Shown here: positions 3,233 to 63,469 of the stretch, one piece after another
Layout of the letters: every line of letters begins with the position of its first letter
Position numbering within the stretch: the first letter of the stretch is position 1
Source: Nymphaea colorata
Taxonomy: Eukaryota; Streptophyta; Magnoliopsida; Nymphaeales; Nymphaeaceae
Reading direction: 5' to 3'
Assembly (NCBI RefSeq): GCF_008831285.2
Contig: NC_045145.1
Location: 22,088,040 to 22,152,039 of the forward strand
Length of the DNA stretch: 64,000 bases
The notes under the pieces: model-generated
Database searches by the model: none
What the model was told of the DNA's origin: nothing
Seen by the model: only the letters and a program-made list of their open reading frames with translations
Position numbers and translations under genes: made by a program

Positions 3233-3864
3233 TACTTAACATATGGTGTGTGCTGCACAAACCAAAATGGTTTGTGGACAGGTCACAAACACACAGAAAT
3301 ATAATGTCTAATTGAGAAAAGATGCACCACCATTCTTTAGGAAAGACTTGATTCTATATTTTTTTTGAAGCAATCGAAATTGGCATACGTATGTCTTCTT
3401 GGGGAAACTTTGGATGCCATTTCCAGTCACTTATCTCTACGGCTTCTATATATCTCGAACAACGAACACCTGCCATATGAAGTAGACGATCTTAGCCAAG
3501 TGTTCAGTGCAGCACTTAAAACGTGGGCTGCCATCTCGCCGCTTCAAGTTCTCAGATTCGCCACAAAGTGGCGATCACGGTCGCTGATTTGCATTGCACA
3601 TTCTTCACGGGAAATCACCCATATTGTAAACTGCCATTTGGTGGTTGTGGTGGAACGATCGAGCGACCTGCAATCTGTCGCCCTTAATGAGATCGCCATC
3701 TTCTGGGGTTGGGTCATAGTGGAATTCGCGATCCAGTCATGTTCCTGCCTTGAAAGCTCAAACAAGAAGGTGGAGCTGCATGCTGATAATATTGCGACAA
3801 TCAAAGCCAGGCGTAGTGATTTGAGAGTTTCAACGCACGTCATGTCGTAAACGTGGAGAATAAT
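3233..3864 (+). pseudogene. MMP pseudogene, Y type (catalytic remnant)
   Basis: 3233-3364 is the conserved Y-type upstream module. The readable part, 3365-3850, carries pieces of an MMP catalytic domain: a LLYISNNEHLPYEVDDL segment and TWAAISPLQV align with the start of the domain in the gene at 17333. SSDLQSVALNEIAIFWGW matches the zinc helix (SVALHEIGHLLGLGH), but all three zinc histidines are gone. VELHADNIATIKA matches the C-terminus. The stretch between the VVVVE and SSDLQ segments is deleted, as comparison with the locus at 36717 shows. Signal peptide and prodomain are absent. It cannot be an active protease. Confidence 0.85.
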
Positions 3865-3873
3865 TTTGAACAC

Positions 3874-4755
3874 AAGTATTTCTAGCCATGGTCTTCCTTG
3901 CGGCAGTTAACTATAGTGACTGTAGCAATAGGGTTGACACATGATTACAAAATTAAGATTTTCCTCAAATTCTGGAAATTTTTATTAATGTGACAAGCAT
4001 ATTCCATTTGTTATCTGACTTTGATTTTTGTGTATCTGTATTGTAGATGCCAACTAAAGAAAAGTATGTCAGAAAATTGTCTACTCTAAAGAAAAGTATG
4101 TCATCTCCAACAAGGAAGAATATCCCTGCAGTCGTTGTTTAGCAGCCCCTACGACAAACCCACTGCTATAGTAATACTTCTGCTTTATCGCAAATAAAGT
4201 CCTCTTTTAGCAAGCAGCCACCACAGATTGACAAGAAAAGATGATGGACATCAAATACTAGGAAACCAACTAACTGAAAACTGATATACAGTTTTGCAAT
4301 GTTGCAACAGGCTTGAGTAATCAGCACCAACTATCATGCAGATATAAGAAAATTTGGTCCAATAGCAGGGTACTTAAAAAACAAAAATTCACCAGATCTG
4401 GCTGACAGCATCAACAGAAAAAAAAAGGCATACCAGACCAATATATCTTTGCTGATCTGGCAGACTTGTAAACTTCAACCTCAATAGAAACGTAAACCAT
4501 ATTGGTTGAGTGATGTATTTAGACGTCCATCCATCTTGAAGACCAGTTAACTATACTGCAGCCACATCAACTTCAACAAGGCATCGATCTAGGGTTTTGA
4601 AATTTTTTGAGAAAACCCTAGATCGAGCCCAACAAACACGACCCAACTATTGTGCTCAAAACAGTAAGTAGAGTAGAGGAATGGGAAGACGATGGGTATG
4701 AGAAAGGAGTGGAGATGGAGATGAAGGAAGGCATATCAGTACCAAGAAGGAACGT
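3874..4755. other. non-coding spacer with dispersed repeats
   Basis: No convincing gene. 3870-3935 (the words around AGCCATGGTCTTCCTTGCGG) recurs near 42540-42600, so it is old 3' flank of a Y block. 3942-4085 recurs inverted near 48.7 kb. At 4585-4625 a short inverted repeat built on CTAGGGTTTT/AAAACCCTAG could fold. Confidence 0.6.
3942..4085 (+). repeat. dispersed repeat, inverted partner at 48671-48815
   Basis: This stretch, including the words GTGACAAGCATATTCCATTTG and GATGCCAACTAAAGAAAAG, is the reverse complement of 48671-48815 with scattered mismatches. It carries no coding signal. Confidence 0.8.
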
Positions 4756-5800: not shown

Positions 5801-6301
5801 GTGCATGCTCTTTTGCTGCGATCAATTTCCAGCAAACTCCCAAAACTGGGTTTTGCTTTGTCTTTTGTAGCGATCGTTCTGCTTCAGGTCCTAACTAGCC
5901 AGATGTGTGTTTCAGCCAAGAACCATCGCAAACATGCATGGGCGGAATTCGTGCAGCATACTGGCTACAGAGTGGGGCAAACCCATGCAATTCTTCCTTC
6001 TCTTAAAAAATATCTTCACCATTTTGGTTACCTAGCCACAGTTGGGGACACAGCATTCTCTCATGTTTTTTATGAGGATCTCGAGGCAGCCGTCAGGAAA
6101 TACCAAACGTTCTTCAACATCAATGCTACTGGTATTCTCGATGCTGCAACAGTGCACCAAATGATCAAGCCAAGATGTGGTGTAGAAGACATCATTAAAG
6201 GCTCAGAACGACAGAGTTGTGCCAAAGCAATGCCATCAGTATTAAGGCCGGTATCGAGCTGGCGACAATCAGGGGCGGAGGGAGGGGGGAGGCCTGCTTA
6301 G
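5801..6301 (+). pseudogene. propeptide-only MMP-like locus (Z1)
   Basis: The frame encodes a hydrophobic leader (FALSFVAIVLLQV), then an MMP prodomain (WAEFVQHTGYRVGQ, LPSLKKYLHHFGYLATVGD, DLEAAVRKYQTFFNINATGILD) ending in the cysteine switch PRCGVED. The catalytic domain is absent: about 30 codons later the frame runs into a hAT MITE and stops. The ATG that starts related genes (PKMVST at 17333) is replaced by CTG plus one extra base, so no in-frame ATG lies between the TATA box and the leader; the first is after it (SQMCVSAK). Probably a pseudogene, although the prodomain frame is open. The paralogue at 50715 has the same architecture. Confidence 0.8.
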
Positions 6302-6475: not shown

Positions 6476-6483
6476 GCGACAAT

Positions 6484-12749: not shown

Positions 12750-12796
12750 GAGCAATGTGTTCTTTGCTGTATTTGCCAATGATCAAGTTCCTCTAG

Positions 12797-13750
12797 ATGC
12801 CCAAAATGGTTTCTACATTATCCTTTGTTGCAATCCTCATGCTTCTGGTCCAGACGAACTGTATGGAGTGGGCTTCTGGTCACAATGGCAACTTTCATTA
12901 CCAGGCAGGGGCAGAATTCCTACAACTTTCTGGCTATGGTAGAGGACGAAGCCATGAAGTGCTCCCCTCCTTAAAAAGATATCTTCAACGTTTCGACTAT
13001 TTGGGCAGGGTTGTAGACACAGGATTCTCTCGTGTTTTTGATGAAGATATAGAAGCTGCGGTGAAGAAATACCAAGCATTCTTCAACCCCAATGCTCCTG
13101 GTATACTCGACACAGCAACACTGCACCAACTAATCCAGCCGAGATGCGGCGTACCAGACATAATCAAAGATCCAGTGCCGGAAAAATTCCACCGGATTAA
13201 TGTCACCAGCAATTCAAGGTCGTCACTATACAGTCTCAGAAACAATTGTTAGCCACCATCTAGCAGGAGACTATTGTATAATATCTCGTTGAACGGGCAC
13301 ATGCCATTTCCAATAGCAGCTCTGAGGCCTGTCATCCGTGAGGCATTCGAAACATGGGCTTTGTTCTCTCCATTCGACTTCACAGAGACTTCGATCGAGA
13401 GAACCACTCAGTTGCACGTCAGATTCTACAGAGGGCAGCACTTAAATTGTCCAATTCCCTTTGATGGTCTTGACGACGTGCTCACACACGCAACTGAACC
13501 GCCATATGGGATGCTTCACATCAATGCAGATCGTTTACGGGCGATCGACCCTGAGAAGTTGAAGAACACGAGAGAATCGTACGACCTTCAATCGGTTGCC
13601 GTTCATGAGATCGACCCTCTAGTGGGGTTGGGTCACAGTAGAGTTTGAGAAGCAATCATGTATCCTTCCTTGGATTCTCAAACAAGGAAGGTGGACCTGC
13701 ATGGCGATGATATTGCAGGAATCAATGCTATGTATCCTAGGTCTAGCTGA
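12797..13750 (+). pseudogene. MMP pseudogene X1
   Basis: One frame covers the complete MMP plan: signal peptide (MPKMVSTLSFVAILMLLVQ), prodomain with PRCGVPD, catalytic domain, C-terminus VDLHGDDIAGINAMY. It is disabled three ways. A stop at 13250-13252 (TAG) replaces the Trp of KRWPPSS seen in the sister gene at 17333. A second in-frame stop (TGA, at about 13646) sits where the sister has Pro. The zinc helix reads VHEIDPLVGLGH, losing the Gly and the second zinc His. No frameshift separates the pieces. It retains a TATA box. The neighbouring intact copy downstream is its closest relative. Confidence 0.92.
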
Positions 13751-17332: not shown

Positions 17333-18289
17333 ATGCCCAAAATGGTTTCTACATTATCCTTTATTGCAATCCTCGTGCTTCTGGTCCAGACCAACTGTAT
17401 GGAGTGGGCTTATGGTCACAATGGCAACTTCCATTACCAGGCAGGGGCAGAATTCCTGCAACTTTCTGGATATCGCATAGGACAAAGCCATGAAGTGCTC
17501 CCCTCCCTAAAAAGATATCTTCAACATTTCGGCTATTTGGACACGGTTGCCGACACAGGAATCTCTCGTGTTTTTGATGAAGATCTAGAAGCTGCCGTGA
17601 AGAATTACCAATTGTTCTTCAGCCTCAATGCTACTGGTATACTCGACACAGCAACAGTGCACCAACTAATCCAGCCAAGATGCGGTGTACCAGACATTAT
17701 CAAAGATCTAGCGCCAGCAAAATTCCATCGGATTAATGTCACCCGCAACTCAAGTTCATCACACTACAGTCTCAGAAACAAACGTTGGCCACCATCAAGC
17801 ATGAGACTATTGTATAATATCTCGGAGAATGAGCACATGCCATTTCCTATAGCAGATCTGAGGCCTGTCGTCCGTGAGGCATTCGAAACATGGGCTTTGT
17901 ACTCACCATTCGACTTCACAGAGACTTCAATTGACAGAATCGCTCAGTTGCACATCGGATTCTACAAAAGGCAGCACTTAAATTGTCCAATTCCGTTTGC
18001 AGGTCCTAACGACATGCTCGCACACGCATTTTATCCGCCATCTGGGAAGCTTCACATCAATGCAGATATTATATGGGCGATCAATCCTGAGATTTTGAGG
18101 AACACGGAAAATTCGTACGACGTTCAATCGGTCGCCCTTCATGAGATCGGCCATCTACTGGGGTTGGGTCATAGTACAGTTCCAGAAGCAATCATGTATC
18201 CTTCCTTGGATTCTCAAACAAGGAAGGTGGACCTGCATGGCGATGATATTGCGGGAATCAATGCTATGTATGATGTACTAGCTGATTGA
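17333..18289 (+). CDS. matrix metalloproteinase zymogen X2 (intact)
   Basis: Secreted zinc endopeptidase of family M10A, intronless as is usual for plant MMPs. The frame is open from 17300 (329 codons). I prefer the ATG at 17333 because 17300 lies before the expected transcription start, and the sister gene has a stop between these ATGs and starts at the same MPKMVST. Numbering from 17300: signal peptide about 12-33, prodomain about 45-125, cysteine switch PRCGV 126-130 (Cys128), catalytic domain about 160-325 with HEIGHLLGLGH at 281-291 (His281, Glu282, His285, His291) and Met-turn Met299. The structural-zinc/calcium loop is unusual: QHLNCPIPFAGP replaces the canonical DHGDGxPFDGP, so the Asp ligand is Asn. 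No C-terminal GPI-like tail. A polyadenylation word AATAAA lies at 18319-18324. It is the only intact X-type gene; substrate unknown. Confidence 0.93.
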   Translation: MPKMVSTLSFIAILVLLVQTNCMEWAYGHNGNFHYQAGAEFLQLSGYRIGQSHEVLPSLKRYLQHFGYLDTVADTGISRVFDEDLEAAVKNYQLFFSLNATGILDTATVHQLIQPRCGVPDIIKDLAPAKFHRINVTRNSSSSHYSLRNKRWPPSSMRLLYNISENEHMPFPIADLRPVVREAFETWALYSPFDFTETSIDRIAQLHIGFYKRQHLNCPIPFAGPNDMLAHAFYPPSGKLHINADIIWAINPEILRNTENSYDVQSVALHEIGHLLGLGHSTVPEAIMYPSLDSQTRKVDLHGDDIAGINAMYDVLAD

Positions 18290-20936: not shown

Positions 20937-21150
20937 ACTTAACATATGATGTGTGCTGCACAAACGAAAATGGTACATGGCCTTGTCACAAACACACAGA
21001 GATATATTGTCTACTTGAGAAAAAAAGCACCACCATTCTTTTGGAAAGACTTGATGTTGGATAGTGGCCCTGACCCCTATCTCTACTTCGTGTAACTGCA
21101 AGAGGACCCACCTAATTGAGAAAAAAAGCACCACCATTCTTTAGGAAAGA
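20937..21150 (+). promoter_or_regulatory. Y-type promoter module, disrupted
   Basis: TAACATATGATGTGTGCTGCACAAACG, then AAGCACCACCATTCTTT and GGAAAGACTTGA, as in the loci at 3233 and 39697. It is cut at GACTTGA by the LTR element at 21156 and resumes at 22327. Confidence 0.65.
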
Positions 21151-21210
21151 CTTGATGTTGGATAGTGGCCCTGAGCCCTATCTCTACTTCATGTAACAGC
21201 AAGAGGACCC
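21010..21210. repeat. about 100 bp tandem duplication across a transposon junction
   Basis: The unit runs from TGAGAAAAAAAGCACCACC through the host/LTR joint to GCAAGAGGACCCAC and occurs twice in a row (about 21010-21107 and 21108-21210), with a handful of differences. It contains host DNA and the first 55 or so bases of the LTR, so it arose after the element inserted. Confidence 0.85.
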
Positions 21211-22326
21211 ACTTGCAGTTACATGATTAAATAAGAAAACTGCCCATTAATTGAGAAAATTAATCTCTTTGGCCGTAACCGTCCATGAAAACCTAGGAGG
21301 CGGTCTATAAAAGCCTAGCTTATCTTTATTTAGTGTTAATCGTAAGATTAACCTAACTAGCACCTCCTAGAAGCAAACCCAAAAATCTAATCTCTTCTTC
21401 TCTTTCTTTCTCTCGTTTCGTTTGTTGTTGTTTTGGGTGCAGGTTTGAGTTGCAGCAGGCTAATGTTGTGGGTAAAGATCTGAGTGGAACATCAGAGTTG
21501 TGAGGTGGTTGCCAAACATGTAGCCCGAATGGGGCTATGAACATCACGGTCTGCCTCCTTGTGAGGTGGTTGAAAAGTATGCAGGTTGATTTCATTGTTG
21601 AACAATAAGAGAATATGCATGAATGTTTCAAATACTTATATGATTGCTAGCATTTTAATCAAGAGAATTTTTGATGATTTTTATGTAAAGCTTATAGTTC
21701 ACATGGGACTAAGTTTTAACATGTTATGATGGAAATACTGGTGCATGAAGAAAACCTCATAACTAATGTAAAATATATTGAATACTTGAAAGGTTGTGAT
21801 GGAAAACCATTAAAAGGAAAACCTCGCTACTATTCTTGAACGAAAATTCATGTTATGATTGACAAACCAATTATGTAAAACCTCGTAACTAAAGATTAAT
21901 GAAACACACAAATAGTGGTAGCAATCTAATGGATTCATGGCCAAGTGAGAGATGTTGGATAGTGGCCCTGAGCCCTCTCTCTAATTCATGTAACTGCAAG
22001 AGGACCCACTTGTAGTTACATGATTAAATAAGAAAACTGCCCATTAATTGAGAAAGTTAATCTCTTTGGCTGTATCCGTCTGTTGCTAGGCATTGGGAAA
22101 ACCTAGGAGGTGGTCTATAAAAGCCCAGCTTATCTTTACTTAGGGTTAGTCATAAGTTTAACCTAACTACCACCTCCTAGAAGAAAACTCAAAAATCTAA
22201 TCTCTTCTTGTCTTTCTTTCTCTCTTGTTTTGTTTGTTGTTGTTTTGGGTGTAGGTTGGAGTTGCAACAGGCTAGAGTTTCTAATGTTGTGGGCAAAGGT
22301 CTGAGCAGAACATCAAAGTTCCTACA
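21156..22326 (+). mobile_element. small non-coding LTR element (TRIM-like)
   Basis: 1171 bp with LTRs at 21156 to about 21503 and 21953-22326, both starting TGTTGGATAGTGGCCC; the second ends CCTACA. A purine-rich CCAAGTGAGAGA precedes the 3' LTR. A 5 bp target duplication, CTTGA, is at 21151-21155 and 22327-22331. The inside (about 450 bp) has no coding domain. LTRs carry a TATA-like TCTATAAAAGCC. Size and lack of genes fit a TRIM or deleted derivative. It split a Y-type MMP promoter. Confidence 0.85.
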
Positions 22327-22349: not shown

Positions 22350-23093
22350 GCAATCGGAATTGGCATACGTATTTCTTTTGTTTGTGAAGAACATCTCCAG
22401 GCAGCCATCAAGAAATATCAACTGTTCTTCAACCTCAATGCTACAGGGATACTCAACTCTGCAACAGTGCACCACCTGATCCAACCAAGATGCGGCGTAA
22501 GAAACTTTATCAAAGCCCCAAGCTCGGCGAAATTCCACCGGAATATTAATGTTATCGGCAACTCAATTTCAATGATCTGTAAGCTCAGTGGTGCTCGCTG
22601 GCCAGCATCAAGAAGGAACCTCTTGTACAAGATCTGGAGGACAGCCGACCTGCCATATCCTATAGAAGATCTGAGACCACTGTTTTGTGTAGCATTTGAA
22701 ACATGGGCCGCTGTCTCGCCATTCGAGTTCGTAGAGATGTTATTGAGAACGGCCAATCTGCACACTGTGTTCTACAGAGGGAAGCATGAAAGTTGTCCGA
22801 TGGCATTTGATGGTCGTGGTGGATCGCTGGCGCACTCATTCGATCCGCCAATTGGGATCACTCACTACGACGCAGATGATTTATGGGAGATCAACCCTCA
22901 GAAATTGGCAGAAACAGAGGGATCGAGTGACCTGCAGTCAGTAGCCCTTCATGAGATCGGCCATCTGTTGGGGTTGGATCATAGTTCAGTTCCTGAAGCA
23001 GTCATGTATCCTTCCCTGAAACCTCAGACAAGGAAGGTGGAGCTTCATGCGGATGATATTGCAAGCATCAAGGCACTGTATCCTGACGGCTGA
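22350..23093 (+). pseudogene. MMP locus Y2, 5'-truncated, catalytic domain intact
   Basis: Open frame from the codon after the stop at 22347 to 23093, but with no ATG before 22572. It starts inside the prodomain (EEHLQAAIKKYQLFFNLNATGIL), keeps PRCGV, then a full catalytic domain with SVALHEIGHLLGLDHSSVPEAVMYPS (three His, Glu and Met-turn present) and ends VELHADDIASIKALYPDG. Signal peptide, the first half of the prodomain and the TATA region are missing: promoter words ending GCATACGTATTTC run straight into prodomain sequence. Transcribed, it would give at best an unsecreted fragment from Met at 22572. The structural loop reads KHESCPMAFDGRGG, with Ser for the Asp ligand. Confidence 0.85.
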
Positions 23094-25250: not shown

Positions 25251-25289
25251 TCTGAAGAGATCATTCACTATGAATATTACAGTGTCTAG

Positions 25290-25774
25290 TGTATGTAGCT
25301 GATCAAACAGCTATCTGGGGTAAACTGAAATACAACTATTAACTAACATTTAGTTAAGGATAACAATGATCAAATAGTTGTTTGATTAGTAAATAGGTTA
25401 TTGCTAGATAGTTGTTTAAGTTGTTCAAACGATTGATTATTAGGATATAGTCATTACATAGAGTGTGCCGCCAAAAAATTTTACTAAGCAAACCATGTAG
25501 AATGTTTTCCCATGCTTGTGTCACTTCGACCAACATTTTTCAGTTGCCGGTAATAGGCAAATTTTTTGTAGTGATGCTCATCATTTATTAGTGTCATTAG
25601 TTAACTTATGTAGTGCGTCACGCAAACCAAAGTGGTGTATGCCATGACACATATATTGTCTAATTTAAGTAAGAAAAGATGCACCATGATTCTTTTGGCG
25701 AGGCATTTGATTCTATCAATTTTTGAAGTAGCTGAAATTAGCATGGATAAATCAAACTGGTGTGTGCCATGACA
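25290..25774. other. X3 upstream DNA left of hAT insertion
   Basis: Matches 16800-17200: AACAGCTATCTGGGGTAAACTG, TTGATTATTAGGATATAGTC, then the promoter words ATGCACCATGATTCTTTT. Part of the promoter module is duplicated on the two sides of the hAT element. No gene. Confidence 0.65.
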
Positions 25775-25782
25775 CATATATT

Positions 25783-41849: not shown

Positions 41850-42185
41850 CAGGGCCAGGATAAGAAATTGGGGGAGACAAAAAGAGCTATTAAAGAAATT
41901 AAGGGAGAAAGAGAAAACAAGAAGAAGAAATTAACGTGGTTCAGATAAATCTCCTACTTCCTCGATGTACCTCACTACTCTACTATCAACGCTGTGAGGT
42001 TTCCACTATCAAGGTACCACATTACAGTCATGCCAAATTGAAGAGATATTTCTCCTTTATTTTAATGAGGAAGTTACAGTTGATTTTATTGAAGGTATTC
42101 TTCCTTGGCAAAATCGGTGACATGCTTGGAGTTGCCAGATTTGCTCAATCCTTGAGTAGGCGCGGATTTGGTTTATAGGCAGCAA
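41850..42185. repeat. dispersed repeat R, second copy
   Basis: Copy of 36290-36625, ending in GAGTAGGCGCGGATTTGGTTTATAGGC. Confidence 0.65.
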
Positions 42186-42222
42186 TTGCTCGCTGGCAAC
42201 TCAACTTCAATGCTCTACAACC
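42186..42222 (+). pseudogene. tiny MMP fragment
   Basis: GCTGGCAACTCAACTTCAATGCTCTA matches the linker of Y2 and Y4 (CGGCAACTCAATTTCAAYGMTCTG) and the start of Y3. Only about 35 bp remain before unrelated sequence. Confidence 0.6.
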
Positions 42223-43418: not shown

Positions 43419-46400
43419 TGTATTATACCACAGCATGACATACTCGGCAGCTCCATGAATGTTGCTGGAAGAGATAACGTCCCAGCTTACACGTCTGAAG
43501 CTGGAGGAGATCTCGCCCATATCAGATCCACAAGAAATCATACCAAAGATAATGCCCAGGCCAGCAAGAATGCTACAAAAGATGATGATCTCTATGTATA
43601 GCAACTGAAAAAACGGAAATGTGTGATTCCGTAATCAAATCAAATCAAATCCCAACAAATATGGGATTGATGGACATGTAAGTTGACTATAAAAGAGAGT
43701 CTCTTGTCTTGTAAAACTTAACAAGAAAAAGACACCTTCCATCATGGATGTAGACCAAAGGTCAAACCACGTTAAAATCATTGTTGCCTTCTCCTTTCTC
43801 TCTCTATCTCGTTCCCCTTCCTGGCATGTGGTTTAGTATGGTATCAGAGCCAGTTATGGCCAATCAACCAGCAATACCAAAAGGAGACTCCTACAGCATT
43901 GCTGCGGCATCAACAAAGCCTAGTTTCGACAACATGAATCTGCCTTTTTTAGGTTTGATCTCCTTCGTCATACCTGCCCCAACTAGTGTTAAGCATTTTT
44001 TATCCATCAAACTGTCTTTCGACAACTACTTACTTTGGGAATCTCAGTTCATTCATATGCTTAAGAGTTATAATATGATGGGATATATTGATGGGTCGTT
44101 CAAATGTCCAGACAAGTTCTTGCCTAGTGAATATGGCAAAAGAACTATCTTAAATCCATCCTTCTTGGAATGGCATCGAGGTGACCGACTAATGTTAAGT
44201 TGGATCATTTCATCGCTCAGTGAAGTCATCCATAGTCAAGTTGTAGGTCTTGACTCGTCATACAAAGTCTAGACCACCATAAAATGCATCTATGCTGCTC
44301 AATCTAGAGCAAAGGTGTAGCAACTTAAATCTGCCCTGCAAAACCTGAAAAAAGGAAATGAATCCATAACAGCATATTTTCACAAAGCTAAAGACATAGC
44401 TCATCAGCTAGCCATGACCTCCAAACCAGTAGATGAAGAGGATCTTGTCATGAATATTCTTTCTAGTCTTCCTACTGATGAATATGGCACCCTAAAAGTT
44501 TCGTTGCGCACTCGCGTTGATCCAATAAACTTGGAGGAATTATATTTTTTGCTTCTTATTCAAGAATCTGAAATTTCGAAGTCTGGAAACCTTGAGGATC
44601 CTTCAGCTTATGTAGCACACCGACAAAGCTTCAAGAATCCTAATTACCGTGGAAAGAATGAGCAGCAAAAAGGGCGCCCACGAATCCATCCTCAGGATAA
44701 AAATGTCAGTTTCCATGCGTACAGAAATCGTGGTCATTTCGCTTCTCAATGCCGAACCGCATGTCAAGCTTGCAGGAAATCAGGACATGGTACATTAAAC
44801 TATAAGTTATATAAGTTCCAAAAGGGATCTTCATCCCCATAAGCTTATCATATGGAAACCATACCTCAAATAGATGATGGATTCTGGTATCCCGACACCG
44901 GTGCTACCCACCATGTGACGGCTGACTTAAACAAGCTCTCCGTTCGTTTACTCGGAATATTGTGGGCAAGATCATCTGAGAATTGGAAATAGTGTTGGTC
45001 TTCAAATCAATAATGTTGGTAATGTCTCTCTCTACAGCTCATACTCAAGATTTTTTATAGACAATCTATTTCATGTTCCTACCATCTCTAAAAATCTTCA
45101 ATCTGTGCATAAATTTGCCCTTGACAATAACATCATTTTTAAATTTGATGCAAATCATTGTTATGTTAAGAATCAGACAATATGGCAGGAACTTATGGAG
45201 GGAGAAAATAAAGGAGGATTGTATCAGCTGAAGTTACAACAACATGAGCTCGCCAAAAAACAGCACTTGTAGGAGAACAGGTCTTAGTTGGTGATTGGCA
45301 TAGTCGTTTGGGACATCCTGATTTTAGAATTGTGATGCATGTTTTGAATAAATTTGACTTACCTATTGACAGCAAATCTCATAATCAAATATGTGATGCA
45401 TGTCAAAGAGGGAAAAGTCACGCTCTTCCTTTTACTCAAACACTACATAAGATTAATACTCCACTTGATTTGATTTGTACTAACGTTTGGGGACCGGCTG
45501 CTATCACATCTTTGCATTGTTATAGCTATTATGTTAATTTCATGGATGTCTTCTCTCGTTTCTCTTGGATATATATTATCAAAAATAAATCAGATGTTCT
45601 TTTCGTCTTTAAAACGTTTTAAGTTATGGTAAAACGTCAATTTGATCAAAAAATCAAGGCTATTCAAAGCGATTGGGGAGGAGAATATCGCACTGTTTCC
45701 ACATATCTCAAACAAATTGGTATTGTTCATAGAGTTGCGTGCCCACATGCTCACCAACAAAATGGCAGTATAGAAAGTAAACACAGGCATGTAGTTGACA
45801 TCAGATTAACTCTACTTGCACATGCCAATTTACCTTATAAGTATTGGGACTTTGTCTTTAGAATTGATGTTTTTTTTATCAATAAAATGCCCACTCGTGT
45901 TCACAAATGAAGTCACCATATTAAGTTTTGTTCAAACACTCTCCTGTTTATAAGTTTCTAAAGGTTTTTGGATGTGCATGATATCCTTAACACTCATAAA
46001 CTACAGTTTCATAACAAGCAACATGTCTTTTTTTGATATAGCAGCATGCACAAAGGATACATTTGCTTTTATCGAGATATGAGCAAACTCCTTATCAATA
46101 GACATGTGATTTCTGATGAAAGTGTATATCCCTTTAAAACCTTGGCGCCACCAGCCCAACCCCCACCAAGTAAACCTCCATTGCCCTTAGTCATTACCAT
46201 GCCCCCCCCCCCCCCCCCGCCCCCCACCCCCACCAAACAAAAAAAAAAAAAAAAAAAACATAACACATCTCTCAAATTGTTCTTCTCTCACACCCGTGCA
46301 CCATTCACCAAATACTACATCATCCATACCTCCAATCTCTCCCATTCATTCACCCTCCAACAATGCTCAGGACATACAATCTGAACCTCCATCCTCACTG

Positions 46401-48438
46401 ACCCATGCACCACCTCATCATTCACCGCCGAACCCTTCACCACCCTCTAGACCGTATCGCTCTCACCACATGCTCACTCGGTCCCAAACTGGTTTTCTTA
46501 AGCCAAAAACCTACACTATCTCCAAATATTCACTCCCTGCAGCTCATCTCACCCATCTAAACTTCGAAACCGAACCTCGTACTGTGTATCAAGCTATGAA
46601 AGATGAACTTGCAGCTCTACACAAGAATCACACATGGACTCTTGTATTGATGCCTCCCTTTGCTTATATCATTGGCATGAAATGGATCTTTCGTATTAAA
46701 AGGAAAGCTGATGGCACACTAAAAAGATACAAGGCTCGCTTAGTGGCTAAGGGCTGCATTCAAGAACATGGTATTCATTACTTTGAAACCTTCAGTCCCG
46801 TAGTCAAACATACTTTTATATGTGTTCTTCTCACTATTGTCATTACTTTTGGCTGGACTGTTCGTCAACTTGATGTTCACAATGCTTTCCTTCATCGATG
46901 ATCATTTTCCTCACCATGTTTGTCAACTGCATAAGGCTATTTATGGTTTAAAACAGTTTCCCCGTGTTTGGTTCCAACGGCTTACTAATTTCTTGATGAC
47001 ATTGGGGTTTGTTGGCTCAAAAGTATATTCCTCTCTTTTTCTGCAGGTGCAATCTGATTCCACTTTATATATCTTGATCTATGCTGATGATATCATTATT
47101 ATAGGAAATAATGATACTATGATCAAGTCCATCATGAACATTCTAAATCAAGAATCTGGCATTAAAGATCTTGGCCCCCTGCTCTATTTTTTGGGAATTC
47201 AGGTGACTTTCTCCTTCAAGGGTTCATTTCTTTCTCAAGAAAAATATATGCTTGATCTTCTGCAGAAAGCAAATATGATTAATGCAAAACCTCACTGTAT
47301 GCCTATGTCGACCACTTTAAAACTGTCAAAACATGCTAGAGAGCCTCTTTTCGATCCCACTCCGTATCGGCAACTTATTGGTGCACTGTAATATCTTACG
47401 CTCGCATGGCCTGATCTCTCCTTTGTTGTCAACAAAGTGTGTCATTACATGCTACAGCCTATTACTATTCACATGACTGCTATGAAGCGTATTTTATGCT
47501 ATGTCAAGGCCACCCTATCTTGCGGACTTCTTTTAAAGTGGGCCACCACTTTTCACATTGATGCTTACACTGATGCCGACTAAGCTGGCAATATTGATGA
47601 TCGTAAGTCTATTGGAGGTTTTGCCATCTTTATAGGATCATCTCTTGTTTTTTGGTCTGCCTGCAAACAACCTACTATTGCTCGATCAAGCACCGAAGCT
47701 GAATATCGTGCTCTAACATCCTGTTCTTCTGGGGTTTATGACTCATGTTTTTACTCAAGGAATTACATATTACTATGCCACACGTTCCTTGTTTATGGAG
47801 TGACAACATGAGTGTTGCTGCTCTCTCTGCCAATCCAGTTTTTCATAATAGAAGCAAGCATATTGAGATTGATGTTCACTTTGTTCGCGATCATATCGCC
47901 AAGAATCATCTTCAAGTCCACTATATACCTAGTGCTGATTAGCTGGCGAACATCCTCACAAAGCCTCTTGCTCAACTTACTTTCGACAATCTTAGATTCA
48001 AGCTCAACGCTCAGATATTAAACCACAACATGACATACTCGGCAGCTCCATAAATGTTGCTGGAAGAGATAATGTCCCAGCTTACACGTCTATAGCTGGA
48101 GGAGATCTCGCCCATATCAGATCCACAAGAAATCATGTACATACCAAAGATAACGCCCAGGCCAACAAGACTGCTACAAAAGATGAGGATACTCTATGTG
48201 TAGCAACTGAAAAAGGAGAAACATGTGATTTTGTAATCAAATCAAATCCCAACAAATATGAGATTAATGGACATGTAAATTGACTATCAAAGAGAGTCTC
48301 TTGTCTTGTAAAACTTAACAAGAAAGAGGCACCTTCCATCATGGACGTAGACCATAGGTCAAACCACGTTAAAATCCTTGTTGTCTTCTCTTTTCTCTCT
48401 CTATCTCGTTTTTCTTCCTGGTGTGTGGTTTAGTATCA
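43419..48438 (+). mobile_element. complete but decayed copia retrotransposon
   Basis: Two LTRs of about 420 bp, 43419-43838 and about 48012-48438, share TGACATACTCGGCAGCTCC, GCTGGAAGAGATAA and TCCCAGCTTACACGTCT. The primer-binding site TGGTATCAGAGCC follows the 5' LTR at 43839. Inside, in order: gag with zinc knuckle, protease, integrase, RT, RNase H. The LTR termini are related to TGATACTAAACCACA/TGTGGTTTAGTATCA, but the left end is altered (TGTATTATACC), so the target duplication is not resolved. Confidence 0.9.
43855..47960 (+). pseudogene. copia Gag-Pol, multiple stops and frameshifts
   Basis: Gag from about 43855 (MANQPAIPKGDSY, FLSIKLSFDNYLLWESQF) with stops near 44270, then ITAYFHKAKDIAHQLAM and the zinc knuckle (CRTACQACRKSGHG, near 44755). 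Protease FWYPDTGATHHVTADL near 44883. Integrase HSRLGHPDFRIV, CDACQRGKSHALPF, SDWGGEYRTV, then HQQNGSIESKHRHV. A proline-rich, poly-C and poly-A stretch (46200-46260) interrupts the integrase-RT linker. RT: MKWIFRIKRKADGTLKRYKA, QLDVHNAFLH, AIYGLKQFPRVWF, YADDIIIIGN at about 47081. RNase H near 47570-47940 with a frameshift. There is an apparent deletion in RT near 46900. Confidence 0.9.
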
Positions 48439-50714: not shown

Positions 50715-51208
50715 TCTATTTCCACCAAACTCCCAAACTCGGTTTTGCTTTGTCTTTTGTGGCAATTGTTCCGCTTCAGGTCCAAACCAGCCAGATGCGT
50801 GTTTCAGCCAAGGACAATCGCAAACATGCATGGGCGGAGTTCGTCCAGCTTACTGGCTACGGAGTGGGGCATACCCATCCAATGCTTCCTTCTCTTAGAA
50901 AATATCTTCACCATTTTGGTTACCTAGCCACGGTTGGGGACACTGCATTCTCTCATGTTTTTGATGAGGATCTCGAGGCAGCCGTCAAAAAATACCAAAT
51001 GTTCTTCAACCTCAATGCTACTGGCACTCTCGATGCTGCAACAGTGCGCCAACTGATCAAGCCAAGATGTGGTGTAGAAGACATCATTAAATGCCAAAGC
51101 AATGTCTTCAGTATTGAGGCGGATATCGAGCTGGCGACAATGCATGAAGATCAAGGCCAACTGCATCGATGCATGAACAAGTGGCAACAACGCCTGGGAA
51201 GGAGCTGA
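50715..51208 (+). pseudogene. propeptide-only MMP-like locus (Z2)
   Basis: Hydrophobic leader (FALSFVAIVPLQVQ), prodomain (WAEFVQLTGYGVGH, LPSLRKYLHHFGYLATVGD, DLEAAVKKYQMFFNLNATGTLD) and switch PRCGVED, followed by about 45 residues unrelated to the catalytic domain (CQSNVFSIEADIELATMH, later MNKWQQRLGRS) and a stop. As at Z1, the leader ATG is gone (CTC in its place). The frame is open upstream to an ATG at 50603, but that lies before the TATA box. The prodomain is uninterrupted, so a protein is possible only if transcription starts further upstream. Unlike Z1 it has no MITE; the tail is longer. Confidence 0.8.
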
Positions 51209-55869: not shown

Positions 55870-56805
55870 ATGGGTTGCAGTACATTCATTGTGGCAACTT
55901 TTGTGCTGGTTTCCCTTCATGGTGCTAGCTGCCGGATGTTGGCTGCTGAGGCCGGCGAGGAGAGCTATGTCCGGGCGGACCTCAGCCAGCTCACCGGTTG
56001 CCGGCGTGGGGAAAATAAGGCTGGGCTTGCCTCCCTAAAGCGATACTTGAATCATTTTGGTTACCTTGACAACCAGGGAGCCGATGAGTTCTCAGATGAA
56101 TTTAACGAGGATCTCGAAGCTGCACTCAGGACCTACCAGATGAATTTCAATCTGAACACCAGCGGAGTCCTGGACGAGGCGACGGTGCAGAAGCTTATCC
56201 AGCCCAGATGCGGTGTCCCTGACATTGTCAACGGCACCAACTTGATGAAGTCGGGCCGCCACCGGTACATCCCCGGCGTCGGCCACTTCGTCATGCATTA
56301 TTCATTCTTTACCAACATGCCCCGGTGGCCGGATTCTCAACGTAATCTCAAGTACACCTTCTCTACCGACAATCAGCAATATGGAGCAGAGCAGCTGAGG
56401 TCTGTCTTCTCTGCAGCGTTCGCCAAGTGGGCAGCAGTGTCGCCGTTCCAATTCGCTGAAGCCTATGAGGGCGAAGTAGCCGATTTACAAATTGCTTTCT
56501 ACAGCGGAGATCATGGAGACGGCCATCCGTTCGATGGGCCGGGTTCCATCCTTGCACATGCATTTGCGCCAACAAATGGAAGGCTTCATTTCGATGCCGA
56601 TGAGACCTGGCTGCCTGACGCCACCGGGACGAACGGAGTGGATCTCGAATCGGTGGCAGTCCATGAAATCGGCCATCTTCTTGGGCTCGGCCATTCTGCA
56701 GACATTAATGCAATCATGTTTCCGACAATTAGAAGAGGAGAGAGGAAGCTGAACCCGAATTCCGACGATGTTCAAGGGATCCAAGTGCTTTATGGCTCCA
56801 AGTAA
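55870..56805 (+). CDS. matrix metalloproteinase zymogen W1 (intact)
   Basis: Intronless 311-residue secreted M10A zinc endopeptidase. Signal peptide about 1-21 (MGCSTFIVATFVLVSLHGAS); prodomain about 34-111 (LSQLTGCRRGENKAGLASLK, DLEAALRTYQ) with switch PRCGVPD (Cys114); linker; catalytic domain about 148-309. The structural-zinc/calcium loop is canonical: DHGD (214-217), PFDGPG, LAHAF (His230), LHFDADE (His240). Active site HEIGHLLGLGH 265-275 with Glu266; Met-turn Met283. N-glycosylation sequons at Asn96 and Asn121. No C-terminal extension, so a soluble apoplastic enzyme is likely. The C-terminal segment is unusually basic (MFPTIRRGERKL) beside its sister at 62534 (MYPSIGAGVRKV). Single start, strong TATA box upstream. 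Confidence 0.95.
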   Translation: MGCSTFIVATFVLVSLHGASCRMLAAEAGEESYVRADLSQLTGCRRGENKAGLASLKRYLNHFGYLDNQGADEFSDEFNEDLEAALRTYQMNFNLNTSGVLDEATVQKLIQPRCGVPDIVNGTNLMKSGRHRYIPGVGHFVMHYSFFTNMPRWPDSQRNLKYTFSTDNQQYGAEQLRSVFSAAFAKWAAVSPFQFAEAYEGEVADLQIAFYSGDHGDGHPFDGPGSILAHAFAPTNGRLHFDADETWLPDATGTNGVDLESVAVHEIGHLLGLGHSADINAIMFPTIRRGERKLNPNSDDVQGIQVLYGSK

Positions 56806-58479
56806 AATACCATTAATGGAGACGACGTATCAGTTGGAGGAGATGATGAAGAAGTACACTTAAGAAGATATACATAGTTCATAATAGGCCAACTTGTTCC
56901 TTATAGTTCATTATAGGCCAACTTGGTGTCTTATAGCGTGTCTTGTTCCACATATGTCGAACTGGCACGTACTCATGCCCCCTTTTTTCTGTATTTTTAA
57001 ACAAATGAAATTTATAAGTTAATTTGTTGTTTTCTAGTGTTGCCTTCATATAAGTGCTCAAGGTTCGATAAAACATGACTTTAAGTTTAAATCTAGACAA
57101 CCCAAGAACCAAAAAGTTATTTGAAAATAACGATTAGATATCAAGTAGTAATTTCTTATTTGAATGAGTGATTGGCGTTCCCAAAATCATGTATGCATCA
57201 GCATAAAACTGCTTCTGAAGATGGTAACGAATTATGTCTCGGATGATGAAAATGTTGCACTGTCAACGCCACAGGTGTACTTCAGTGTAATTATTTGAAA
57301 ACCCAGTTTTGTTTAAGTTGCAAATTTGCTCAATCCTTGAGTGGGCGTGGATTTGGTTTATCGGCAGGTATAGCAGGATTGGATGGCATTGATTTGGATC
57401 TTGATAGATCTGAATCTGCTAAACTTAGATAGGTCGTGTTTACGTTGTTTGACAAGCTTGGTGAGGTACGTGTTAATTGAAGTACTATGTTTCGAGTATG
57501 ATTATTGTCCAGTTTAGAGAGTTATCTGGTGCTTGTTAGTGTAGGGCATCGTAGTTAAATTTTGATTTGGATTTCAGCATATTTAATGATTTTCCTCGGG
57601 ATAATTAGTTAGAAGTTCTATTTTCTACTTTTTTCCATTATATGGCGGCGTCGCTTAGCCTTTATATGTTCATGTCTTAAATCTGCGAGTTATAGATCAT
57701 TCGGTCGAGTCTGGTATAAATATGACGTTGTGCTATGCTACCAAGCTTAGCTAATTTTGGTGACGGGATCTTTTACATTCATACAACACAGTAAAAGCAA
57801 GCTTCCTTTAAACTTGCAATGGTGAAACAATCACCGGTATAGCTAGAGCACAGCATCGGTATATGTCGACCGACTCTGCGTGGTGCATATATTTGTAGTT
57901 CATATTATTATTACAATCATGCAGTGGCGGAGGGAAACATTTTTGGTTGAAGGGCAGTCATTTCTTCTGTCATATAGTCATGTAGAATGAAGTTTCCACA
58001 TGATTTTTTTGTAGTGCTTCAACCAGTTCTCCAATGGTGAAAACTTGGAATTTTTATTCTTGATTCGTTGAATTAAGAATGAGCATTCAACGAAGACCAA
58101 TGCAACTAAAACATTCTTTGCCAGTAATTTTTAACACATCCCCAACGTCCTGATAATTAATCTGTAATTTTCATTTATTTATTATGAAATATATTTATAC
58201 CTTGGTTCAAACTAGTTTCATAATCAGTTCTAAAGCTTTATGAACCCATGATATCAGCCCCAGTTCCTATCGGCGAAAAATTGGTAGAGAAAAAAAAAAG
58301 TCACATAAACCTCAAGAGAGAAAGGGAGAGCTAACAAGTTTATAAATGTATTGTGGCAAAATAAGCATGCTATGTAGCTTGCCCACGCGAAATGCGTCGT
58401 CCTCTTTCACAAATCAAACGAAAACATTAATTTAAATGTTTAAATCAATAGGATAATAGCAACATCACTCGAATGAGAT
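56806..58479. other. W1 3' flank and spacer
   Basis: 56806-57310 is shared with 63470-63885 (GTCTTATAGCGTGTCTTGTTCC, TTCAGTGTAATTATTTGAAAACC). At 56878-56935 TTCATAATAGGCCAACTTGTTCC is repeated in tandem. 57330-57370 is a tail copy of repeat R. No gene in the rest. Confidence 0.6.
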
Positions 58480-59480
58480 GCATTAATTTGATTTTGTAAC
58501 TAATGGTCCCTTTTATGGGGATTAATTATAAAACTCTATTTATAGGAATCTTCAACAAGACAATTTGTGCATTAATCAACTGCATTCTACTTGGGTACAA
58601 AAATTCTTTTTAAAAAAAGAAGGTGCCAGATGGAGTTGCATGCACAGACAAATACAAAGAAAAAGGGGTTAGGGCATTTTTAAAATATTTTAAACATACA
58701 TTTTAGACTTTTTAACATTTCCATAAATCTTCTTTTATCATTCTAAAAACCATTGTTTTTAACATTTCCATAAATCTTCTTTTATCATTCTAAAAACCAT
58801 TGTTTTCCTTTTTTTACTTTTTTTTAACAATATTTTGGTCATAGCTCCGCCTTACAAAAAACATATTTGGGAGCCTTATATTCTGAAGGAAATAACGTAC
58901 ATAATCCTTCAATTTAGAGGAGCAATAAAACTACCAAAAAGGCCTGAACCAGCCATTTCAACCTGGCAATCTTGTACATCATGAAGCTGACTATTCGGTC
59001 AGCCAGCGGTCAAGCAAAAATTATTCAGAGACTAAACATGCGATGGTTCTACCACATTGACTAATGCTGCAGCAAGGTGTTCCACGTTAAAGACGAAGAA
59101 TTCAACCACCGATCCCGCGCTCTGGTCACGGCCGCCATGTTCCGTTTCACAACTTGAAAAGGACCACTACTCCAATAAACGATCCGCGTCCACTGCAGCA
59201 ACATTGTCTTCTTAGTTTCTTTTCGCAGCATGCATGATTTTTTTCTCTAAACAACTTGCAAATTAACTGGTCAGTCTTCAACGTAGAGAAATATTGGTGC
59301 TGCCATTAATTCTGGAACAACGAAACCTTGGAAAGTTCGTAATTGGTGCCGCTTTTAATTATGAATCAACGAAACCTTTCAAAGTACGTAGAAAAAGGGT
59401 GTGACCCATTCAACACGTCCAATTTGGAATCCACAATTTCTAGGTCATTGCTCATCATTGTCGATCTTTAAGTCCCTAAC
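58480..59480 (+). promoter_or_regulatory. orphan W-type promoter (no gene)
   Basis: Collinear with the 800-900 bp upstream of W1 and W2: TTTTGTAACTAATGGTCCC, ATTCGGTCAGCCAGCGGTCAAGC, GACGAAGAATTCAACCACCGATC, TCATTGTCGATCTTTAAGTCC. It stops just before the TATA box and start codon, where ACACCCAGCTCAGGG begins; no MMP coding sequence follows. It is a third W copy whose transcription start and gene body were lost. 59274-59395 holds a short local duplication (GCTTTTAATT... AACGAAACCT). Confidence 0.8.
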
Positions 59481-60130
59481 ACCCAGCTCAGGGACAAAAG
59501 CCAAACCCTTTGATTTTGATTTTTAAAATGTATAATATGATTTTGTTGATGCAAAAATCATTTGTTAGACTTTAATAGTATTTTTATAATGTTTAGCTAA
59601 TAAAAAATAACCTTTTTCATTACAACAACTTGAATCAAAGCACATTTTATATCAAAATAGTTTTTATAAGTATTTAAGGCATTTACCAACTTTCTTATTC
59701 ATTCAAAGGTCTGATAACACAAATTTTGATGTATTTGACCAATAATAAGCATGGTCCGGCGAGGCCTTAGTGGTCTACACTCGCTTCATAAAAACCGTTG
59801 TATTAAACCAGTTTCGTTTTCATTTGGTCTGTATTTCTTAACCATTTATATTTAAGAAAACATATATATAATTATATGGGTCCTCAAACGTACAAATCCA
59901 CATAAAAATAATGCTCTCTGTGCACTTGTGTGATTTTAGAAGCAAAAGGAAACATCACACCGTTGATTTTGAAAGTTAATAAAAAAAAAATATCCACACT
60001 TTTTAGATGTAGATCTCTCTTTCTCTCTCTCTCTCTCTCTCTTTTTGCGTAATTTTGTTCTTTGCGGATTGTTTTTGTATTTAGGGAACCTCTTGTCCCC
60101 AAATTTTGTTATATATTCTCATTTTATCGG

Positions 60131-60527: not shown

Positions 60528-61740
60528 CTATGTTTTCTTGAGAATGAACGTCTTTCACTAGTTTATTAGAATTAATCATATGTTTGCAAGGAAAATCATA
60601 AAATATATTTTTTTAAGGATTAAATTAATGTCAAGAGTCTTGAGGGATGGACGTCTTTCACATGTCTGGCAGAATCAATCAAATGTTTGCAATTAGAATC
60701 ATAAAATGTATTTTATTAATGATTAAATTAAGGTCAAGAGTCTTAAGGACGAAGGTCATCAAATTTGATATACGTATTTATGTATAGGCATGTATGTGGC
60801 AAGTTTTTAAAAATTTTGTATCCACATGTTCCTTCATTGTCCAATTACATATATACATCGGAATTATTTAAAAAATCAAATGATCGAAGTGGCCAGAATA
60901 TCTTATTCGAAGACTAGAGGGCCAACGAAGCAGTATAATTGTATCTGTAACCACCAATAGGGAACTTTGTTAGCCATTTTAGATGGCCGTCTTCAGACCA
61001 TAAACGTCATTGAGGGCTACTGATCGGACAGCAACAGAACAATACTAATAAAGAGGATGCTGGGAGGTATATTCCCGATTAATCATGCATCGGCAAAGTC
61101 AGTCTTTGGCTGGTCAGAGAAGAGGGACGTTGGTCTCTTGACGTCACTGGACGTCTTTCGCAAGTTTAGCACAATTGATAATATCTTTACCAGTAAAATC
61201 AGAATATATATATATATATATATATTATATATGTTAAAGTTACCATAAAGTGTCATTACATCACGAACTATAGATAATATCAATGACTATTTTTTACTGA
61301 AATTTTTAAATTTTAAGATGAAGTAACATCCAATGGCAGCTTTAAACTCCCAATGTATGTACATGTTTCAGTGATCTAAACTCATGAAAATTGTATCCTT
61401 TGTGTGTGTGTCTGAGAGAGAGAGAGAGAGAGAGAGATGAAATAGGGACAAAGTTTGATGCGTGAGAAAGAGGGAGAGAATCAGAGATGTTTTAACTAAA
61501 ACATGTTTTTCACAAATCGAACTTTTTCGAATGTTTAAATCTAAATGACAATAAAAAAGACAATCTTGAATACATGCGGGTCTATATTCGAAGTTAACTA
61601 GTTTATAAGTACATACTCTCAACCTAATTAGCATCCTAGCTCTGACGCACCAATTGTGTCGTTGTTTTTCACAAATCAAACGTAAACAATGCAAATGTGG
61701 AAATCTGTAGGATAATAAAAAAAATCACGGAAAAGAGCTG
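59481..61740. other. AT-rich spacer with microsatellites
   Basis: No gene. Contains (CT)n 60015-60041, (CT)n(AT)n 60132-60200, (TA)n 60486-60525, (TA)n 61203-61224 and (GA)n 61409-61438. A local repeat of about 100 bp (GAATGAACGTCTTTCACTAG, then GGATGGACGTCTTTCACATG) is at 60540-60745. Confidence 0.65.
60042..60131 (+). mobile_element. LINE 3' terminal fragment
   Basis: TTAGGGAACCTCTTGTCCCCAAATTTTG and TTATATATTCTCATTTTATCGGC match the last 90 bp of the LINE ending at 35172. Again a CT tract follows directly. Confidence 0.75.
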
Positions 61741-62533
61741 TTTAAATTTGAATTGTAACTAATGGTTTTTGCTTTTACGGTTTATAAAATTCAATTTACG
61801 GGATATCTTTGCGGAGTTAATTTGTGCATTAATCAACTACGTTGTACTTGGATATATATGTTAATGCATATATATGACACTACGATCTAGATCACGAGCA
61901 ATTTAAGTACAAAAAAGGCCCTGATCCAACTAGATATTTCATCCCGTCCATCTTTTAAATCATGCCCACCATTTAGTCAGCTAGAGGTCAAACCAAAAAG
62001 TTGAAGGGCTAAAACATGCGTTGGGTTTGACCAGGTTGACTGATTCTGCAAGGCCTTTCACATTGATGACGAAGAATTCAACAGTCGATCCCGCGCTCCG
62101 GTGAAGGCCCTCAAGTTCCTTGCCACAGCCCCAATAAACGATCGGTGTCTACTGCGGCAACATTGTCTTCTTAGTTTCTTTCTTGTTTCATGTCCTTCCG
62201 CTAGCTAAGTCGTAGCAAGCAAGATTTTCTCTTAACAACATTCAAATTAACTAGTCAGTCTCCAACGTAGAGAAACGTTGGTGCTGCCATTAATTGGTGC
62301 CGCCAAAACCTTTAAAAGTTCGTAGAAAAAGGGTGTAACCCATTCAACACGTCCAATTTGAAATCTGCAATTTCTACGTCATTGCTCATCATTGTCGATC
62401 TTTCAGTCCCTACACGGCATGTACCAATCTTGTATTTTGGATCTATAAATAGCTGCCACCATATGCACCAGACATTGTACAAATCTCTCTAGTAAGAGGT
62501 TAATTAGGAGGTTCTGCAGTAAGTGCCTTAGTC
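61741..62533 (+). promoter_or_regulatory. promoter and leader of W2 MMP
   Basis: TATA box TATAAATA at 62444-62451, 83 bases before the ATG. Shares with W1 GACGAAGAATTCAAC, TTTTCTTAGTTTCTTTCTT-like and AAGAGGTTAATTAGGAGGTTC blocks. W-box cores at GAGGTCAAACC (about 61986) and CAGGTTGACTG (about 62033). Confidence 0.65.
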
Positions 62534-63469
62534 ATGGGTTGCAGTACATTCATTGTGGCAATTCTTGTGTTGGTTTCCCTTCATGGTGCTAGCTGCCGGA
62601 TGTTGGCTGCTGACGCCGGCAAGGAGAGGTATGTCCGGGCAGACCTCAGCCAGCTCACCGGTTGCCGGCGTGGGCAAAATCAGGCTGGGCTTGCCTCCCT
62701 GAAGCGATACTTGAATCATTTTGGTTACCTCGACAGCGAGGGAGCCGATGAGTTCTCAGATGAATTTAACGAGGATCTCGAGGCTGCACTCAGGACGTAC
62801 CAGCTGAATTTCAATCTGAACGCCAGCGGAGTCCTGGACGAGCCCACGGTGCAGAAGCTTATCCAGCCCAGATGCGGTGTCTCTGACATTGTCAATGGCA
62901 CCAACTTGATGAAGTCCGGCCGCCACCGGCACATCCCCGGAGTCGGCCATTTCGTCATGCATTATGCATTCTTTGCCGGCATGCCCCGGTGGCCGGATTC
63001 TCAGCGTAATCTCAAGTACACCTTCTCTACCGACAATCAGCAATATGGAGCAGAGCAGCTGAGGTCCGTCTTCTCTGCGGCGTTCGCCAAGTGGGCAGCA
63101 GTGTCGCCGTTCCAATTCGCTGAAGCCTCTGATGGCGAAGTAGCCGATCTAGAGCTTGCTTTTTACAGCGGAGATCATGGGGACGGCCGTCCCTTCGATG
63201 GGCCGGGTACCGTCCTTGCACATGCGTTTGCGCCTACAAATGGAAGGCTTCATTTCGATGCCGATGAGGCCTGGCTGCCTGACGCTACCGGGACAAACGG
63301 AATGGATCTCGAATCGGTGGCAGTCCACGAAATCGGCCATCTTCTTGGGCTCGGCCATTCTGCGGACATAAATGCGATCATGTATCCGTCAATTGGCGCT
63401 GGAGTGAGGAAGGTGGACCCGAATTCCGACGATGTTCAAGGGATCCAAGTGCTTTATGGCTCTAAGTAA
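62534..63469 (+). CDS. matrix metalloproteinase zymogen W2 (intact)
   Basis: Tandem sister of the gene at 55870: same 311-residue length and plan, no introns. Signal peptide about 1-21, prodomain with switch PRCGVSD (Cys114), catalytic domain with canonical DHGD (214-217), LAHAF, LHFDADE and HEIGHLLGLGH (265-275), Met-turn MYPS (Met283). Differences from W1 are scattered. The clearest cluster is the segment after the Met-turn (SIGAGVRKVDPNSDD here), which looks like the usual MMP form, and the prodomain (KERYVRADLSQL). Sequons at Asn96 and Asn121. Secreted, no GPI-like tail. Its flanks are W-type on both sides, and a possible polyadenylation word AATAAA is at 63589-63594. Confidence 0.95.
   Translation: MGCSTFIVAILVLVSLHGASCRMLAADAGKERYVRADLSQLTGCRRGQNQAGLASLKRYLNHFGYLDSEGADEFSDEFNEDLEAALRTYQLNFNLNASGVLDEPTVQKLIQPRCGVSDIVNGTNLMKSGRHRHIPGVGHFVMHYAFFAGMPRWPDSQRNLKYTFSTDNQQYGAEQLRSVFSAAFAKWAAVSPFQFAEASDGEVADLELAFYSGDHGDGRPFDGPGTVLAHAFAPTNGRLHFDADEAWLPDATGTNGMDLESVAVHEIGHLLGLGHSADINAIMYPSIGAGVRKVDPNSDDVQGIQVLYGSK

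Follow-up and report, generated by a model that had tools for sequence, protein, structure and literature searches.

A 64,000-nucleotide stretch of chromosome 8 of Nymphaea colorata (C8:22088040-22152039; hereafter the window) very probably holds the right half of a tandem birth-and-death array of apparently intronless genes for putatively secreted plant matrix metalloproteinases (MMPs), a reading drawn from sequence, as is the predicted function of the open copies. Using four window proteins as tblastn queries, we located 11 separate MMP (matrixin, M10A) coding loci in the window, and the damage to each copy was described by frame-aware alignment. Among 10 open reading frames of the window, the Pfam Matrixin cut-off was passed by 7 and the PG_binding_1 (prodomain) cut-off by the remaining 3. 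When 160 kb around the window were read, the array was found to continue past the window to a total of 21 loci over about 122 kb (C8:22036700-22159231; tblastn cut-off 1e-4), and searches of the rest of the genome revealed relatives on chromosomes C3, C4 and C12. A first-pass annotation of the window had described ten coding loci, all in one orientation within about 60 kb, three of them intact. The array and its decayed copies are real and far beyond chance, as judged from the tblastn loci and the Pfam passes, but the count rises to 11. The single orientation holds for 11 of 11 loci in the window and 21 of 21 in the array, all on the + strand, while the confinement to 60 kb does not, as the window contains about half of the whole. 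The figure of three intact genes is likewise set by the window edges: 7 array loci have full-length open frames, the remaining 14 being broken or fragments, and 4 further full-length frames lie elsewhere in the genome, outside the array.

The full-length open frames of the window are those at 17333, 55870 and 62534 (a12, a18 and a19 in Table 1), as had been proposed. They are not the only copies to combine frame, switch and zinc site, since the truncated copy at 22350-23093 also keeps all three. Beyond the window, open array copies lie at C8:22048259, 22059231, 22074970 and 22154979; in the first of these the usual first codon is not ATG, and the next methionine is three codons further. In open copies a single frame spans the whole protein and the N-terminus is hydrophobic. 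The catalytic zinc site HExxHxxGxxH and the Met-turn are present in 17333, 55870 and 62534, and Pfam prodomain and Matrixin matches both exceed their cut-offs in these three, in the four dispersed genes and in three of the open array copies that lie beyond the window; for the seventh open copy, a05, the search of the genome gave a Matrixin match that passes its cut-off. The switch cysteine (PRCGVxD) is kept in 19 of the 20 copies that have the position, with a C to R change in a03, outside the window, and the catalytic glutamate is kept in 20 of 20 aligned copies having its position. A hydrophobic tail at the C-terminus, present in 3 of the 4 dispersed N. colorata genes, is absent from the open copies of the array. 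From this layout, open copies would be expected to make apoplastic zymogens with a signal-like N-terminus, a switch-bearing prodomain, a catalytic zinc domain and no C-terminal anchor, and by analogy with other plant MMPs they may act in stress, defence or senescence.

As the first-pass annotation had suggested, separate trees were built for the prodomain (21 sequences) and the catalytic domain (20 sequences). They resolve five array clades: A (the 55870 type), B (the 17333 type), D, E and F. Self-comparison identified blocks repeated together with their flanks, namely 11767-15055 and the adjoining 15094-19628, 5512-8619 and 50408-54854, 20058-23505 and 38794-41440, and 55296-57120 and 61967-63794; further block duplicates with flanks lie outside the window. 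Paralogues thus stand head to tail, their flanks duplicated along with them, and open members neighbour broken ones. Synonymous divergence (Ks) within clades is 0.11-0.20 for B, 0.09-0.19 for D and 0.16 for F. In E it is 0.06 between a07 and a15 and 0.15-0.48 for the decayed a09, and in A it is 0.14-0.15 between a18 and either a19 or a20 and 0.005 between a19 and a20. The dispersed genes are far apart, with Ks of 2.5 for the C3 pair and 1.3 for the C4-C12 pair. The N. colorata whole-genome duplication has a Ks peak at about 0.9, according to PMC7015852, and the recent array copies, with Ks well below that value, are therefore much younger. The sequences show that five older lineages (A, B, D, E and F) multiplied in more recent times, chiefly through duplication, head to tail, of units a few kb long and of larger blocks, at Ks of about 0.06-0.20.

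Unequal exchange appears to have left a footprint at the left edge of the array, where an open cation-efflux frame of 891 codons (L010:1109-3781, - strand; zinc-transporter-like and His-rich) is located. Truncated copies of this frame lie between the early MMP units, at array positions 19394-20119, 23722-24909 and 29485-30530, and we therefore read them as captured pieces of the neighbouring gene. Exchange within genes is suggested by a04, which groups with a01 in the prodomain tree (86) and with a05 in the catalytic tree (100), in rough agreement with a sliding comparison.

Copies in the window are preserved at many stages of decay (Table 1), and the birth-and-death character proposed at first pass is borne out by stops, deletions, insertions and relics; copies have died by stop codons, deletions, LTR (long terminal repeat)-type insertions and LINE (long interspersed nuclear element)-type sequence. 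For two insertions the empty site survives in a homologue: a09 retains that of the LTR-type insertion at 21055-22326, whose left junction is crossed by a 101-bp tandem duplication (21011-21212), and the homologue at 22.6 kb keeps that of the 390-bp insert splitting a16. The a14 frame runs into LINE-type sequence (RVT_1 piece at 32960-33619), and homology to other copies returns at 35175. One promoter-only relic had been reported; it exists, but there are two. The first is 88% identical over 2.1 kb to the upstream region of a08, an open copy outside the window, and its homology ends about 109 bp before the expected ATG position. A search for residual coding fragments outside the known loci gave 6 matches (one per 200-bp bin), 2 of them in the window. 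Only the stub at 42174-42220 is clear, the other, at 6620, being 29 bp long with an E value of 0.05; a 48-bp match adjoins a01. The stub most likely corresponds to a coding fragment previously given as 35 bp, although it measures 47 bp and the pairing of the two is a guess.

Table 1. Features of the MMP array and inserted elements in the window (window positions; TSD, target site duplication).
Feature	Position	Strand	Description
a09	3233..3820	+	Broken E-type; 5′ region 3233-3397, catalytic remnant 3434-3808, five frameshifts, no prodomain
a10	5837..6199	+	F-type, prodomain only; leucine at usual first-methionine position; in block repeated at 50408-54854
a11	12797..13735	+	Full-length B-type (17333-type) pseudogene; two stops (13252, 13648) and a damaged zinc motif; lacks the usual B upstream region
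a12	17333..18289	+	Open 318-aa MMP, B-type; switch PRCGVPD, zinc site HEIGHLLGLGH, Met-turn
LTR-type element	21055..22326	.	Direct repeats of ~370 bp, TG..CA ends, TSD CTTGA; 5′ part of a13 locus
a13	22350..23093 (tblastn locus 22371-23093)	+	D-type, open from residue 77; part of prodomain, switch and catalytic domain kept; signal peptide and first prodomain part (~76 residues) missing
Promoter-only relic 1	~23620..25752	+	B-type (17333-type) upstream region
a14	31146..31361	+	First 72 codons of B-type copy
a15	36729..36956	+	E-type catalytic fragment
a16	39812..40998 (39812-40189 + 40600-40998)	+	D-type, without signal peptide; split by solo-LTR-like insert 40207-40596 (TG..ACA ends, TSD GACCT)
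Coding stub	42174..42220	+	47 bp, E-type, 96% identical to start of 36.7-kb-type copy
Copia-type element	43421..48436	.	Between 89%-identical direct repeats of ~420 bp each (43421-43839, 48016-48436); gag and RVT_2 pieces; between MMP loci
a17	50732..51091	+	F-type, prodomain only, sister of a10; in block duplicate of 5512-8619
a18	55870..56805	+	Open 311-aa MMP, A-type
Promoter-only relic 2	~58390..59528	+	A-type (55870-type) upstream region without coding sequence
a19	62534..63469	+	Open 311-aa MMP, A-type

The open pair formed by 62534 (a19) and its neighbour a20, which begins 4.4 kb downstream, outside the window, has been homogenised by gene conversion. Across the coding region (ten 100-column blocks) 7 of 985 aligned sites differ, the first block accounting for 5 of them, and there is a single synonymous difference. 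Upstream, 34 of 377 aligned sites differ in the four nearest blocks, and downstream the two nearest blocks differ at 13 of 181; these counts omit more distant blocks, where the alignment is poor. A homogenised tract is thus enclosed on both sides by older flanks, a pattern that fits recent conversion of most of the coding region. Near-identity of a19 and a20 could also come from an assembly artefact, the appearance of an array being created by repeated contigs or by haplotypes that were collapsed or left uncollapsed, and the assembly is in 783 contigs. Conversion is preferred over an assembly repeat because the near flanks have diverged by about 7-9% on both sides. For the array as a whole we consider such an artefact highly improbable and rejected it, as it is contradicted by these flanks, by the divergence of the other copies (Ks 0.06-0.20 within recent groups, or more) and by private insertions and different flanks in some of them. 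In addition, the 160 kb read around the window are free of N, and the published N. colorata assembly (409 Mb) was made from PacBio long reads, as stated in PMC7015852. The first-pass reading of the copies as a true local array therefore holds.

The copies differ in the sites that bind structural metals. In MMP-1 numbering, we take H168, D170, H183 and H196 to be the structural zinc ligands and D175, D198 and E201 the calcium ligands; positions were placed by an alignment anchored on solved MMPs. In 17333 the calcium ligands are changed by D175A, D198N and E201I, and the zinc ligand D170 is changed to N. Of the 13 B, D and E copies, 2 retain D170 and 11 have another residue there, against retention in 7 of 7 A-type and dispersed copies, and the residue that follows this position is cysteine in 13 of 13 of the former and glycine or arginine in 7 of 7 of the latter, in a column that adjoins an alignment gap and with a19 and a20 non-independent. 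Counted over B, D and E, the histidines of the structural zinc site are present in 36 of 37 cells (H168 in 12 of 13 copies, H183 and H196 each in 12 of 12 having the position), the single loss being in a03. At position 198 all 7 B copies and the E copy a07 have N, and the three D-type copies and a15 have D. At position 201 the glutamate is gone from all 7 B copies and is D in the D type; a07 and a15 still have E. A-type and dispersed genes keep their structural ligands, except for D175T in the C3 gene c3g1. A structure prediction for 17333 built on 8 sequences reached a mean predicted local distance difference test (pLDDT) score of 42.4 and was not used.

Read from the aligned residues, the invariant cysteine beside an eroded structural-zinc aspartate is a new observation, and of the leads to come from the array a structural metal site that has been rebuilt is the most interesting. 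In its strongest form, this reading would make B, D and E a subfamily of MMPs whose metal scaffold has been rebuilt, with the cysteine as a new zinc ligand or a redox switch in an active secreted protease for which the array is a testing ground. We regard this as rather doubtful: broken copies carry the cysteine too, so shared ancestry alone could explain it. More soberly, much of the usual scaffolding for calcium and zinc appears to be gone from the B copies, 17333 included, and these copies appear to be weakly constrained.

How far the B copies are still maintained was judged from indels, stops and substitution rates. The seven near-full-length B copies contain no frameshifting indel: in the coding sequence 29 of 29 indels are multiples of 3, compared with 27 of 83 in the downstream 250 bp, counted over 21 pairs that are not independent. 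The upstream indel count, which includes six non-homologous comparisons with a11, was set aside. Stop counts are 0, 0, 0, 0, 1, 2 and 2, where neutral simulation gives a mean of 1.5-2.8 per copy at divergence 0.05-0.10. B frames thus seem to have been kept under selection for most of the time, and from the lack of frameshifts it follows that death was recent. At the amino-acid level constraint on the B copies is weak, as seen in the nonsynonymous-to-synonymous rate ratio (omega), which is 0.70 for open B tips and 0.88 for tips with stops. For the A pairs a18-a19 and a18-a20 it is 0.34-0.35 and for the two dispersed pairs 0.16-0.23, values obtained with estimators different from that used for the B tips. 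To have called 17333 intact was accordingly generous, given its lost structural ligands and an open-tip omega that is not clearly distinct from that of broken tips.

Several points weigh against the picture of an array whose open members are maintained. Besides the non-independence of the B pairs, at most 2 stops in a single copy would be unsurprising under neutrality (P 0.47-0.83), and since single-copy counts are not rare under this null, the argument for kept frames draws its weight from the indels and from the total over copies. The omega of open B tips is only marginally below 1 (twice the log-likelihood difference, 2dlnL, 3.96) and indistinguishable from that of broken tips (2dlnL 0.8). 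Finally, the order of the block duplications is resolved only in part. It is quite conceivable, if somewhat short of probable, that the B lineage is a dying side branch relaxed by redundancy, and that none still matter but the dispersed genes and three of the A type (55870, 62534 and the copy after it). The lost ligands at structural metal sites, the elevated omega of open B tips relative to A and dispersed pairs (with the different estimators noted above) and stops in 3 of the 7 near-full-length B copies are what such a branch would show, whereas the absence of frameshifts and the four B copies still open, with switch and zinc site, argue for maintenance.

Diversifying selection might instead drive the B expansion, for example through an arms race with pathogen inhibitors, making the array a rapidly evolving cluster of defence proteases. 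Roles of plant MMPs in defence are in print (PMC4465618, PMC5568438), and site models initially gave a strong signal. For the seven B copies, model M2a improved on M1a by a 2dlnL of 27.7, or of 29.6 without gapped columns, the latter with an omega of 3.9 at 13% of codons. The gain was 7.8 for the prodomain and 15.6 for the catalytic part; without residues 209-228 it was 30.3 for the whole and 13.6 for the catalytic part. The four open B copies gave 11.5 (whole) and 5.5 (catalytic), and a control set of the A type and C3 gave 3.3. In 39 null simulations that gave the two halves different trees, the gain went no higher than 8.3, short of the observed value. With two codon rate classes, however, the gain dropped to 3.8 for the whole, 7.1 for the catalytic part, 0.6 for the prodomain and 4.1 for the open copies, and a null model with rate variation (log-likelihood -2911.93) fitted better than M2a without it (-2913.09). 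A class of codons with omega above 1 was thus not robust to rate variation, the catalytic part still giving 7.1. Regional ratios of nonsynonymous to synonymous differences (pN/pS) are at most 0.87 everywhere but in the open set's signal peptide (1.25), where the 5-95% interval of 0.45-3.34 spans 1. Gene conversion and recombination weaken the site models further. Because models with variable rates remove most of the gain and regional pN/pS is low, positive selection is not claimed, and we consider diversifying selection an unlikely driver.

Taken together, these data describe an ordinary tandem gene family in mid-turnover, the structural metal-site changes of its copies being what is unusual. 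Both the series of decaying copies and the conversion tract show clearly at the level of sequence; the function of the open copies is predicted. Tandem birth-and-death clusters in general have the same duplications, pseudogenes, transposon insertions and local homogenisation, with no mechanistic difference from the array, although MMPs are an unusual family for such a cluster. Plant MMP families had been taken to be small, which agrees with the five genes each reported for Arabidopsis (PMC5568438) and tomato (PMC4465618, where they are intronless). At-MMPs and Sl-MMPs resemble the genes described here in having a single frame (in the array, apparently intronless), the PRCGVxD switch, HExxHxxGxxH, the Met-turn and the PG_binding_1 and Matrixin domains, while the B, D and E types of the array alter structural metal ligands and copy number is far higher. 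The generalisation is qualified by soybean, for which PMC4263021 lists matrixin genes with neighbouring names (Glyma02g03210-Glyma02g03335), most with a catalytic E-to-Q change. The names alone suggest a local tandem run of MMP genes, some probably altered at the active site; catalytic glutamate is lost in most of that run, whereas the array here keeps it and changes structural sites instead. Tandem duplication is also named for N. colorata peroxidase genes (PMC11788295). Of the 23 peroxidase genes in that paper's table for chromosomes 6, 8, 9 and 13, 22 overlap, by eye, a match listed for the present genome on the contig of the same number, the exception among the matches listed being NcPOD31, and this agreement points to N. 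colorata. Among the papers listed by a word search of open-licence literature, which for long lists means the top entries, none reports a tandem MMP expansion of this kind, positive selection on plant MMPs or MMPs of N. colorata, an absence that, given such a search, is weak evidence.

The substrates and evolution of plant MMPs are poorly known. In an early-diverging flowering plant, the array offers a natural series from open to nearly erased copies, in which duplications are ordered by their divergence, empty sites survive for insertions and a conversion tract is preserved. The turnover rate of a secreted protease family can be tested on it, and its MMPs with altered structural metal sites could be compared with conventional sisters in the same array.

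In the genome at large, 25 Matrixin matches were found, 15 of them within C8:22038592-22155905, and a protein search gave 34 matches. Outside the array there are two open and one broken MMP gene on C3 and one open gene each on C4 and C12. The C3 genes form a smaller cluster (C3:18323601-18335164; L019, L020, L021) in which one open gene has a hydrophobic C-terminal tail and the other does not. About 0.85 Mb upstream of the array, broken MMP pieces in both orientations lie at C8:21187743-21199284 (L024, L025), among them pieces back to back around C8:21188028 and A-type pieces up to 94% identical to 62534. Rfam (gathering thresholds) and tRNA scans of the window gave no match. A 39-bp tandem repeat of 2.7 copies at 37002-37105 lengthens the a15 frame with a lysine-rich repeat tail, and a similar tail follows a07, the sister of a15. 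A 103-bp tandem duplication (60536-60749) lies between the A-type relic and 62534. At the two ends, a further copia-type element occupies positions 1-2120 of the window, and a UDP-glycosyltransferase-like frame lies past the right end of the array.

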